Below, piece by piece: positions 27,384 through 30,322 of a stretch of 64,000 bases of DNA. Position 1 is the stretch's first letter, and each line of letters starts with the position of its first letter. The notes beneath the pieces are model-generated. The model ran no database searches. It was not told where the DNA came from and saw nothing but the letters and a program-made list of their open reading frames with translations. The translations under genes were made by a program, and so were the position numbers. The DNA is from Crossiella equi (GTDB lineage: Bacteria > Actinomycetota > Actinomycetes > Mycobacteriales > Pseudonocardiaceae). The stretch lies in contig NZ_JAGIOO010000001.1 in assembly GCF_017876755.1 (NCBI RefSeq), forward strand, positions 5,751,786 to 5,815,785, written 5' to 3'.

Positions 27384-27439
27384 GACGGTGCTTCCTCCGT
27401 GGAGTGTCCTGCGCCGCCACGGGGAGCCGTCCTGCGGAA

Positions 27440-27513
27440 ACACGACAGGCCGCCAGTGGCGGCGGCCTGTGTCGTGTGCTGGTGCGCGAGACTAGGGCCG
27501 CCGGTCGGCGGCC
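27440..27513 (-). promoter_or_regulatory. Transcription attenuator of trpS
   Basis: On the minus strand four alternating complementary segments occur: 1 GGCCGCC (27507-27513), 2 GGCGGCC (27496-27502), 3 GGCCGCC (27461-27467), 4 GGCGGCC (27448-27454). The 3:4 stem extends outward on both sides to ACACGAC/GTCGTGT-type arms (27440-27477) and is followed by TTT, forming a terminator. A 2:3 pairing would be the antiterminator. Segment 1 directly follows two Trp codons of a leader peptide. Confidence 0.85.
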
Positions 27514-27539
27514 CACCAGAGGTTGGTCATCGTGCGCAC
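27492..27539 (-). CDS. trpS leader peptide with tandem Trp codons
   Basis: A 15-codon frame reads MRTMTNLWWAADRRP and stops at 27492. The GTG at 27539 follows TACAGT (plus 27546-27551) by 6 nt, fitting a leaderless start; an internal ATG at 27530 would give 12 residues. The two adjacent Trp codons (27513-27518) lie exactly before pairing segment 1 of the downstream hairpins, so ribosome stalling at low charged tRNA-Trp would free segment 2. Typical of ribosome-mediated attenuation in actinobacterial trp genes. Confidence 0.8.
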   Translation of the reverse strand: MRTMTNLWWAADRRP

Positions 27540-27706
27540 GGGAGGACTGTAGCGCATAAGGTCTGGGCCGAACGTGTCGCATCACACACAGTGGGTGCGG
27601 ACACGGTGGTATGTCCCCCGAATCGGGGCGTTAAGAAAGCATATAAGTCAAAACCGTGACTTGCTCCACGGATCCCTTCCGGCGGGATCCGGCGTATTTT
27701 CGGGTT

Positions 27707-28015
27707 ATGTACATCGTGCTGCTGAACTACACCGCCTCGACCGACCAGGTCGATTTGGTACTGCCGGAGCACTCGGCCTGGCTCGACCGTCAGTACGCGG
27801 CAGGGAACTTCCTGCTCTCCGGCCGCTGCCGGACCCTCGGGACCACCCACGACCGACTGATCATCGCCCGTCCCATGCTGCGTGGGCAGCTCGACGCGAT
27901 CCTGGCCACGGACCCGTTCAAGCTGCGCAGGGTGGTCCGCCACGAGGTGATCGACTTCGAGGCGTCCCGCACCGCGCCCGGCCTCCTGGCGTACAACGAG
28001 CTACTCGCGAGTTAA
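27707..28015 (+). CDS. YciI-family protein
   Basis: 102-aa small ferredoxin-like-fold protein of the YciI family. The family pattern is seen as YIVLLNYT at the start, LPEHSAWLDRQYAAGNFLLSGRCR in the middle (conserved His and the Ser/Gly turn), and DPFKLRRVVRHEVIDFEAS at the end. Function in this family is mostly uncharacterised; some act as dehalogenase- or lactonase-like subunits. The ATG at 27707 follows TATTTT (27695-27700) by 6 nt, consistent with leaderless translation; an upstream in-frame start is rejected. Confidence 0.8.
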   Translation: MYIVLLNYTASTDQVDLVLPEHSAWLDRQYAAGNFLLSGRCRTLGTTHDRLIIARPMLRGQLDAILATDPFKLRRVVRHEVIDFEASRTAPGLLAYNELLAS

Positions 28016-28071
28016 CCAGCCATATCCACGCGGCACCATGACAAACCGGACGTCTCCCGTTGTTCCCGGCG

Positions 28072-28119
28072 CCCGCCGGTAGTGCTCGGCAGGTATTCCT
28101 GTCCGTGGTTCCCGGCGGG
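28072..28119. terminator. Bidirectional hairpin between the YciI gene and the Cys-rich microprotein
   Basis: CCCGCCGG (28072-28079) is complementary to CCGGCGGG (28112-28119), with further imperfect pairing between CGGCAGG and CCTGTCCG inside. It lies between two convergent genes. Confidence 0.5.
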
Positions 28120-28139
28120 GCCCTGGCATCGTTTTCTGA

Positions 28140-28238
28140 CTATTTCTTTAACTTCTCTTTGGCCTTTTTCAAAGCGAGCACAGGACACCTCTTGCACCGC
28201 GGTTTCGAGCGGCAGCACTTCTTCTTGACCTTGCCCAC
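28140..28238 (-). CDS. 32-residue Lys/Cys-rich microprotein under an iron box
   Basis: Very small basic protein. After the start it reads GKVKKK, then CCRSKPRCKRCPVLAL, and ends in a Lys/Ala/Glu tail. Cysteines 8, 9, 15 and 18 form CC-x5-C-x2-C, a plausible metal or iron-sulfur-binding pattern; 14 of 32 residues are Lys or Arg. The GTG at 28238 has GGGAG (plus 28246-28250) at good distance. It uses a TTA leucine codon (28149-28151), rare in such genomes. A near-consensus IdeR/DmdR box overlaps its likely -10. I recall similar short Cys-rich frames in other actinobacteria but no function. Confidence 0.75.
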   Translation of the reverse strand: MGKVKKKCCRSKPRCKRCPVLALKKAKEKLKK

Positions 28239-28272
28239 TTCGCAGCTCCCAGTCGTCCAGGTTGAGCTCAGT

Positions 28273-28291
28273 GTAGGTTAGGCTTACCTGA
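28273..28291. promoter_or_regulatory. IdeR/DmdR/DtxR-like iron box
   Basis: The 19-mer GTAGGTTAGGCTTACCTGA matches the iron-box consensus TTAGGTTAGGCTAACCTAA at 16 of 19 positions, keeping the central dyad. It overlaps TACACT (minus strand, plus 28270-28275), the probable -10 of the Cys-rich microprotein, placing it as a repressor site for that gene. It also lies 115 bp before typA; a plus-strand TAGGCT falls within it. Confidence 0.75.
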
Positions 28292-28405
28292 TCTCCGAGG
28301 GGATCGTGCCGTCCCCAGGTTCGGGGGCGGATACCATGGGGCGGGCTACAAAGGGCGCAGGAGCCGGTGGCCATCTCCCAACAGGCAGAATTCGAGGAGT
28401 TTCGC

Positions 28406-30322
28406 GTGCCCACCGCCGCGCCTGCCACCGTCAGGACCGATCTTCGCAACATCGCCATCGTCGCTCACGTCGACCACGGCAAGACCACCCTCGTCGACGC
28501 CATGCTCCGGCAGTCGGGCGCCTTCGCGGCCCGCGCCGAGCTCGTCGACCGCGTCATGGACTCCGGTGAGCTCGAACGCGAGAAGGGCATCACCATCCTC
28601 GCGAAGAACACCGCCGTGAAGCGCCACACGCCCGACGGGGTGATGACCATCAACGTGGTCGACACCCCCGGCCACGCCGACTTCGGCGGTGAGGTCGAGC
28701 GCGGCCTGTCCATGGTCGACGGCGTCGTGCTGCTCGTGGACGCCAGCGAGGGGCCGCTGCCCCAGACCCGGTTCGTCCTCCGCAAGACCCTGGCCGCCGG
28801 TCTGCCGGTGATCCTCGTGGTCAACAAGGTCGACCGCCCCGACGCCCGGATCTCCGAGGTGGTCGAGGAGACCCACGACCTGCTCCTGGAGCTGGCCTCG
28901 GACCTGGACGCCGAGGGCGTCGAGCACCTGGACATGTCCGCCGTGCTCGACCTGCCGGTCGTCTTCGCCTCCGCCCGCGCGGGCAAGGCCAGCCTGGAGC
29001 AGCCCGCCGACGGCGGCCTGCCGGACGCGGAGAACCTGGACGTCCTCTTCGACGTGCTGCTCAAGCACGTGCCGCCGCCCACCGGCGACGCCGAGGCCCC
29101 GCTGCGCGCCCTGGTCACCAACCTGGACGCCTCCGCCTTCCTCGGCCGCATCGCGCTCTGCCGCATCCACGCGGGCCAGATCCGCAAGGGCGAGTGGGTG
29201 GCCTGGTGCCGCGAGGACGGCTCCACGCAGAAGGTCAAGATCACCGAGCTGCTGATCACCGAGGCGCTGGAGCGCGTGCCCGCCGAGGTCGCCTCCGCGG
29301 GCGAGCTGGTGGCCATCGCGGGCATCCCGGACATCACCATCGGCGACACCCTCGCCGACCTGGAGAACCCGGACCCGCTGCCCCGGATCACCGTGGACCA
29401 GCCCGCGATCTCCATGACCATCGGTGTGAACACCTCGCCGATGGCCGGTCGCAACGGCGGCGACAAGCTCACCGCCCGCCTGGTCAAGGGCCGCCTGGAC
29501 TCCGAGCTGGTCGGCAACGTCTCCATCAAGGTGCTGCCCACCGAGCGCCCGGACACCTGGGAGGTGCAGGGCCGTGGCGAGCTGGCCCTGGCCATCCTGG
29601 TCGAGCAGATGCGCCGCGAGGGCTACGAGCTCACCGTCGGCAAGCCGCAGGTGGTCACCCGCACCATCGACGGCCAGCTGTGCGAGCCGTTCGAGCGCCT
29701 GTCCGTGGACACCCCGGAGGAGCACCTCGGCGCGGTCACCCAGCTGCTGGCCAACCGCAAGGGCCGCATGGAGAACATGACCGGCCACGGCACCGGCCGC
29801 ATCAAGCTCGACTACGTGATCCCGGCGCGCGGCCTGATCGGCTTCCGCACCGAGTTCCTCACCGAGACCCGTGGCGCGGGCATCGCCAACCACGTGTTCG
29901 AGGGCTACTTCCCGTGGGTGGGCGAGCTGCGCACCCGCCACACCGGCTCGCTGGTGTGCGACCGCACCGGCCAGGTCACCAGCTACGCCATGATCCAGCT
30001 GGCCGACCGCGGCACCTTCTTCGTGGAGCCGGGCGCCGAGGCGTACGAGGGCATGGTCGTGGGCGAGAACCCGCGCTCGGAGGACCTCGACGTCAACGTC
30101 TGCCGCGAGAAGAAGCTCACCAACATGCGTTCCTCCACCGGTGACGAGCTGGAGCGCCTGGCACGCCCCCGCAAGCTGAGCCTGGAGGAGGCCCTGGAGT
30201 TCTGCTCCAGCGACGAGTGCGTCGAGGTGGGCCCGAACGTGGTCCGCGTGCGCAAGCTGGTGCTGGACTCCACCCAGCGCGGCCGCGAGCGCTCCCGCGC
30301 GAAGGCCCGCGACAACAAGTGA
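28406..30322 (+). CDS. typA: Ribosome-associated GTPase TypA/BipA
   Basis: 638-aa translational GTPase of the TypA/BipA family, acting on 50S assembly and stress adaptation. G1 is AHVDHGKTT, G2 region ERERGITI-like LEREKGITILAKN, G3 VDTPGHADFGGEV, G4 VNKVDRPDAR, G5 SARAGKA. EF-G-like domains III and V and a BipA C-terminal domain follow. The GTG at 28406 is chosen because GAGGAG stands 8 nt before it and homologues begin MPT; a GTG at 28367 would add 13 residues. Corresponds in order to Rv1165. Confidence 0.93.
   Translation: MPTAAPATVRTDLRNIAIVAHVDHGKTTLVDAMLRQSGAFAARAELVDRVMDSGELEREKGITILAKNTAVKRHTPDGVMTINVVDTPGHADFGGEVERGLSMVDGVVLLVDASEGPLPQTRFVLRKTLAAGLPVILVVNKVDRPDARISEVVEETHDLLLELASDLDAEGVEHLDMSAVLDLPVVFASARAGKASLEQPADGGLPDAENLDVLFDVLLKHVPPPTGDAEAPLRALVTNLDASAFLGRIALCRIHAGQIRKGEWVAWCREDGSTQKVKITELLITEALERVPAEVASAGELVAIAGIPDITIGDTLADLENPDPLPRITVDQPAISMTIGVNTSPMAGRNGGDKLTARLVKGRLDSELVGNVSIKVLPTERPDTWEVQGRGELALAILVEQMRREGYELTVGKPQVVTRTIDGQLCEPFERLSVDTPEEHLGAVTQLLANRKGRMENMTGHGTGRIKLDYVIPARGLIGFRTEFLTETRGAGIANHVFEGYFPWVGELRTRHTGSLVCDRTGQVTSYAMIQLADRGTFFVEPGAEAYEGMVVGENPRSEDLDVNVCREKKLTNMRSSTGDELERLARPRKLSLEEALEFCSSDECVEVGPNVVRVRKLVLDSTQRGRERSRAKARDNK

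Follow-up and report, generated by a model that had tools for sequence, protein, structure and literature searches.

A conserved cysteine-rich actinobacterial microprotein behind an iron box, with a possible part in recovering iron from ferritin

A 32-codon frame in the genome of Crossiella equi almost certainly represents a real family of microproteins under the control of the iron regulators IdeR/DtxR. We observed that the frame and its cysteines are conserved, that an iron box is kept with the gene, and that a ferritin gene repeatedly adjoins it in four other families, an adjacency which is new here. If the assignment is right, the microprotein would be a tiny and widespread new member of the actinobacterial iron response.

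The microprotein gene and its conservation

The gene lies on the minus strand of the window, the whole 64-kb stretch of DNA that was analysed, and encodes a lysine-rich peptide of 32 aa with the cysteine pattern CC-x5-C-x2-C (Table 1). The original prediction had described the GTG-started frame, a GGGAG ahead of its start, a 16/19 match to the IdeR/DmdR consensus, a TACACT hexamer sharing bases with that match and a TTA leucine codon near the end of the frame, and all of these were recovered as described, with the coordinates, start and length of the frame correct. Along the window, trpS lies beyond the convergent yciI-type gene, which is followed by the microprotein frame and then by the divergent typA gene. 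The yciI-type gene is present in many, not all, relatives, and trpS sits directly 3' of the microprotein gene on the same strand where the yciI-type gene was undetected. A stretch with CAGGAATACCTGCC at about 28060-28110 of the window, 3' of the microprotein gene, is well kept within the genus and was not flagged in a terminator scan. A simple sigma-70 promoter scan returned no -35/-10 pair near the gene. The peptide was also considered as a leader peptide, a reading that was set aside; in the window no same-strand gene follows 3' of the microprotein before the convergent gene is reached, though many loci do have trpS 3' on the same strand, either past the yciI-type gene or directly.

Table 1. 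Features at and around the microprotein gene, in window coordinates
Feature	Position	Strand	Basis
Microprotein gene, 32 codons, GTG start, TAG stop	28140..28238	-	Homologues; 0 non-synonymous changes among five same-genus copies
GGGAG, likely ribosome-binding site	28246..28250	-	Sequence reading; GGAG before GTG in 5/5 same-genus loci
IdeR/DmdR-type iron box, 16/19	28273..28291	.	Kept in homologous loci; box core identical in 5/5 same-genus copies
Likely -10 hexamer TACACT (TANNNT), overlapping the iron box	28270..28275	-	Inferred from sequence reading; T at the corresponding position in 61% of 123 distinct boxed regions
TTA leucine codon (codon 30)	28149..28151	-	Sequence reading; genus level only
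typA (translational GTPase), conserved divergent neighbour	28367..30322	+	TIGR01394 and synteny; probably not box-controlled
yciI-type gene, small, convergent to the microprotein gene	27713-28015		Weak Pfam match below cut-off

Five same-genus copies of the gene, that of the window included, were compared codon by codon. The 12 variable sites within codons 1-32 are all synonymous, and the pairwise differences amount to 68 synonymous and 0 non-synonymous changes, while the flanks vary at 44 sites in the 120 bases upstream and at 88 in the 120 bases downstream. Read from these substitutions, the frame is under strong purifying selection. Two of the five copies extend four codons further.

Conservation reaches well past the genus. 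Among the 100 relatives' genomes searched (own included), 54 match at E<=0.01 and 69 at E<=1, and the full cysteine pattern C-x6/7-C-x2-C-P is present in all 54 loci with E<=0.01. C8, C9, C15, C18 and P19 are invariant in alignments of 40 rows and of 59 rows, the second set having been picked by pattern; as the later homologue scripts demanded CC-x5/6-C-x2-C-P, the later statements of invariance hold partly by construction, and the unbiased figure is that of all 54 loci. Class-wide, a microprotein profile found a match at E<=0.01 in 66 of 296 genomes, and in 58 of these the E value was roughly 1e-6 or lower. The contigs of GTDB r220 yielded 209 relatives, found with a CC-containing pattern, of which the best 80 were kept as named loci, some of their species also being among the genome samples. 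These best 80 of 209 include Amycolatopsis, Lentzea, Saccharothrix, Pseudonocardia, Actinophytocola, Actinokineospora, Umezawaea and Crossiella, as well as Corynebacterium spheniscorum and Mycolicibacterium frederiksbergense. The prediction that the microprotein gene is real was thus borne out, since relatives were found to carry a conserved frame together with the cysteines.

The TTA codon fared differently. It had been taken as possibly bldA-linked, a meaning that fails beyond the genus: TTA occupies codon 30 in 5/5 same-genus loci and another codon in two more, which makes 7 of the 55 loci in a first set (58 loci minus L002, L056 and L058, which are without the cysteine pattern and have E values of 2.65, 0.076 and 0.101). 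The gene was therefore not assigned to the bldA-dependent class, for which a conserved TTA is the criterion.

The iron box and the direction of regulation

Boxes were scored out of 19 against TTAGGTTAGGCTAACCTAA, and at least 13/19 was required for conservation counts. The box ahead of the microprotein gene reaches 16/19 when read on the plus strand, compared with 15/19 on the minus strand, and is the sole site scoring 14 or more within the 64-kb window. In the 9.44-Mb genome, a perfect AGGTNAGNCTNACCT occurs at 4 places, and with up to one mismatch it occurs at 35 places per strand versus 5 for a reversed-pattern control. The genome also has two matches to PF02742 over the cut-off, corresponding to DtxR-family repressors. 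Of the 35 box loci, 15 were read, three of which have Pfam-confirmed siderophore genes, the boxes preceding two siderophore-interacting proteins and a lysine/ornithine monooxygenase; the remaining sites that were read include apparent chance sites inside coding sequence.

The box is largely retained in homologous loci. In the first set, a box of at least 13/19 lies within 200 nt upstream of the cysteines in 46 of the 55 loci, against a background of 0.35% of 3140 windows elsewhere in those loci. In the larger set, from which the duplicates L076, L089, L093 and L100 were excluded, 139 of 181 homologous loci carry such a box upstream, versus 2 of 181 in equal downstream stretches, and 0.55% of 3620 first-order Markov shuffles reach the threshold; because the named loci and the genome sample overlap and many loci are close relatives, the 181-locus counts do not represent independent events. 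With this degree of retention, the claimed control by an iron regulator is well supported by sequence. By group, the box was found in 40/45 loci of the window's own family (f1), 75/80 named loci, 14/20 loci of f41, 2/3 of f3, 2/4 of f4 and 1/1 each of f16, f48 and f54; the counts for f34 (2/9), f8 (1/14), f27 (0/2) and f51 (0/1) leave it absent from 7/9, 13/14, 2/2 and 1/1 loci, respectively. Family f8 (L079-L081, L083-L085, L092, L096, L097, L102, L197, L198) keeps the microprotein, mostly beside typA, with 13/14 loci lacking the box. In this family iron control has therefore apparently disappeared or given way to another control, and, judged by the box scores, f8 speaks against a universal control of the microprotein by the box.

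In f1 and f8 the gene divergent from the microprotein is typA, which was detected as its neighbour in 139/187 loci. A box 76 nt ahead of the typA start adopted for the window might instead control typA, and the small frame be incidental. However, in 28 genomes of other families, where typA is located elsewhere, a box of at least 13 was found upstream of typA in 0/28 and upstream of the microprotein in 21/28, so the box travels with the microprotein. The strong purifying selection on the frame also argues against typA as the target, and this explanation, largely refuted by the two counts, was rejected as highly improbable. Conservation of a box across gene rearrangements can in this way reveal short genes.

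The position of the box relative to the promoter bears on the direction of regulation. The -10 of the same-genus copies reads TACACT, TACTAT or TACGAT, and among 123 distinct upstream regions that carry a box, 61% have a T three bases past its end (position +22), following on the last T-A of the box, compared with a T share of 4-31% at the remaining flanking positions displayed; a TANNNT -10 appears to be built into the iron box. According to a review, IdeR-repressed genes usually have just one box, which covers part of the -10, the start or both, whereas IdeR-activated genes tend to carry several upstream boxes (PMC10317159). In C. glutamicum, the DtxR site lies within the promoter of repressed genes and upstream of the -35 in ftn, dps and sdh (PMC1382209), and for this species and M. 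tuberculosis the same two papers describe DtxR/IdeR as activating ferritin genes (PMC1382209, PMC10317159). A single box overlapping the -10 in the window therefore fits repression by iron-loaded IdeR, and the overlap makes induction by iron starvation the right prediction. From this geometry we infer that the window's microprotein gene is likely repressed: iron-loaded IdeR on the box over the -10 would keep the gene off, and iron starvation would lift the block and turn it on.

The 19-bp box is identical in kind to that of the IdeR/DtxR regulon of Saccharopolyspora and Corynebacterium. For S. erythraea, 37 putative IdeR/DtxR sites in 23 clusters are given in a paper (PMC8464063) the main text of which contains neither 'typA' nor 'small protein', while its Supplementary Table S2 may still mention such a site. 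The open-access literature yielded no description of such a microprotein, and four motif sequence strings are absent from open-access texts; subscription papers or the supplement of PMC8464063 may hold an earlier notice.

The cysteine motif and related families

That a lysine-rich peptide keeps four cysteines points to a metal site. The window peptide has no match in Pfam even at E<=10, and its sole match in NCBIfam is mutY (E 0.24); the microprotein profile matched no solved structure at E<=10, and no phage or plasmid sequence was matched at E<=1 (the phage query being a 55-residue relative). The NCBIfam mutY model is weakly matched by 17 of 59 alignment members and Pfam EndIII_4Fe-2S by 2 of 59 (best E 0.0016, 19.1 bits versus a cut-off of 20.5), all matches to MutY/EndoIII models falling below curated cut-offs. 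When the microprotein profile was aligned with the MutY/EndoIII loop in hhalign, the score was 25.4 with a probability of 74; none of 30 column permutations scored above 17.7, and the reversed profile scored 8.1. The microprotein shares with the MutY/EndoIII [4Fe-4S] loop (PF10576, TIGR01084) the C-x6-C-x2-C-P spacing and local sequence, and it differs in having no fourth cysteine (x5 further on) and no glycosylase domain and in carrying an extra cysteine adjacent to the first. Of the pattern C-x6-C-x2-C-x5-C, the first three positions fit and the fourth cysteine is absent; the extra neighbouring cysteine could replace the missing fourth ligand. Because that ligand is missing and the comparison was picked after a weak match had appeared, the resemblance is a lead only. 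Taken together, the cysteines and the likeness to the Fe-S loop point to metal binding, and we propose a cytoplasmic, lysine-rich microprotein whose CC-x5/6-C-x2-C-P loop would be a metal-binding site, with iron or an Fe-S cluster as the likeliest occupant.

The C-x2-C spacing suits zinc equally, and the protein may instead be a zinc-binding or ribosome-associated basic microprotein whose rise in starvation is unrelated to iron storage. The lysine-rich peptide agrees with this, and the divergent typA (139/187 loci) hints at translation; yet in other families, which have no adjoining typA, the box stays with the microprotein, and the ferritin adjacency described below also argues against such a role, which we consider unlikely.

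Two further protein groups were compared with the microprotein. The YgbA-type 'nitrous oxide-stimulated promoter' family (PRK10410 models), whose protein is longer and comes from other bacteria, has sibling models that are weakly matched by up to 5 of 59 members (best E 0.01); these matches are far too weak for membership, and none of ten members rechecked showed a match. FbpA/B/C of Bacillus subtilis are small basic proteins under Fur, an iron repressor, and we know of no invariant CC-C-C motif in them. Compared by description only, they resemble the microprotein in being small, basic and under an iron repressor and are set apart from it by their regulator (Fur) and by the cysteine motif. An IdeR-controlled, basic, RNA-binding microprotein similar to FbpA/B/C, acting as an iron-sparing aid at the RNA level with cysteines that hold a structural metal, would suit a small, very basic, lysine-rich product under an iron regulator, but it leaves the invariant cysteines and the ferritin adjacency without explanation, and Rfam gave no match within 27400-28600. 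We regard an RNA-binding function as quite unlikely.

Ferritin neighbours and a proposed role in iron release

In families without a typA neighbour, a ferritin gene (PF00210, E 2.8e-36) is found beside the microprotein gene. Family f41 accounts for 15 of the 18 ferritin-adjacent loci, and f48, f16 and f3 contribute a single locus apiece; L090 and L091 represent near-identical genomes. Nine of the 18 are divergent with back-to-back promoters, and nine are co-directional with ferritin 3' of the microprotein. The co-directional pairs are separated by gaps of -1 to 77 nt, with a stop/start overlap of TGATG in L098, and are likely operons. In all 17 sampled f41/f48 genomes with a strong ferritin (E<=1e-60), no more than 114 bp separate it from the microprotein match, and 5 of the 20 f41 loci examined (L077, L087, L095, L099 and L200) have no adjoining ferritin. 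In genomes outside f41, f48, f16 and f3 that do have the ferritin, it was not observed next to the microprotein gene.

Co-occurrence was also considered as proof of a ferritin partnership. A strong ferritin is present in 28 of the 58 genomes of the class sample that carry the microprotein, versus 10.2 expected, a comparison from which relatedness was not removed; bacterioferritin is found in 13 of 58 versus 19.8 expected and is thus not enriched, and 12 of 58 have no ferritin, weaker ferritin or bacterioferritin at the thresholds used. Because of the relatedness and the lack of bacterioferritin enrichment, co-occurrence was demoted to suggestive evidence.

A box of at least 13/19 is present in 14 of the 18 ferritin-linked loci (L078, L082, L103 and L196 being below), and a single box would serve the ferritin gene too. 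Since storage genes are usually activated by IdeR/DtxR, the shared box counts against a repression-based model at these loci. The microprotein could be a ferritin partner that loads or protects iron; the two would be produced jointly, perhaps when iron is sufficient, and the shared box would act positively. The likely microprotein-ferritin operons accord with such a partner, as does the activation of ferritin genes by DtxR/IdeR in C. glutamicum and M. tuberculosis described in the papers cited above. Against it, the window and Pseudonocardiaceae have a single box, which overlaps the -10, and lack a ferritin close by, and activated genes tend toward several upstream boxes (PMC10317159). We judge iron loading or protection to be improbable.

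A role in releasing iron may be compared with that of Bfd (bacterioferritin-associated ferredoxin), in which the cysteines are laid out as C-x-C ... C-x2-C. According to a review of bacterial iron storage, Bfd is a small [2Fe-2S] ferredoxin often encoded beside bfr, tied to iron starvation and proposed to release stored iron, and loss of Bfd traps iron in the store (PMC7762939). The microprotein is likewise a small cysteine protein with a predicted tie to iron starvation and a proposed part in iron release, and it adjoins an iron-storage gene in 18 loci of four families. The two differ in that Bfd is under Fur, whereas the microprotein is lysine-rich, has the pattern CC-x5/6-C-x2-C-P and an IdeR box, and lies beside a non-haem ferritin or typA. 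No Bfd model in Pfam or NCBIfam was matched at E<=1 among the 59 members, and in the window the gene is not adjacent to an iron-storage gene (ferritin at G000:C1:4728723). A starvation-induced small cysteine protein encoded with ferritin nevertheless fits the Bfd role best.

Our best explanation, which we hold tentatively and consider tenable though short of probable, is that an IdeR-repressed, metal- or Fe-S-binding microprotein mobilises stored iron like Bfd. An action directed at ferritin is suggested, in which the microprotein would meet ferritin or another iron store, pass electrons or take up Fe2+, and help to release or hand on the stored iron; the Bfd-like mechanism itself is somewhat doubtful. 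The separate ferritin in the window's genome, the microprotein genomes without ferritin and the shared box at the linked loci speak against the explanation. In its most specific form, it would mean that undescribed IdeR-repressed Fe- or Fe-S-binding actinobacterial microproteins, as short as 32 residues, unload ferritin in starvation as a counterpart of Bfd built on a stripped-down MutY/EndoIII-type loop, which is rather unlikely but, if true, would offer a concrete candidate for how actinobacteria recover iron from ferritin.

The ferritin of the window's own genome (G000:C1:4728723-4729229, L234) is located away from the microprotein and is preceded, in the 400 nt upstream of it, by two iron boxes scoring 14/19, an arrangement that an IdeR-activated storage gene might have. 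Elsewhere in the same genome, a perfect AGGTCAGTCTGACCT palindrome at G000:C1:3055469 (L059) precedes, by some 290 nt, a frame that by eye begins like lipoyl synthase.
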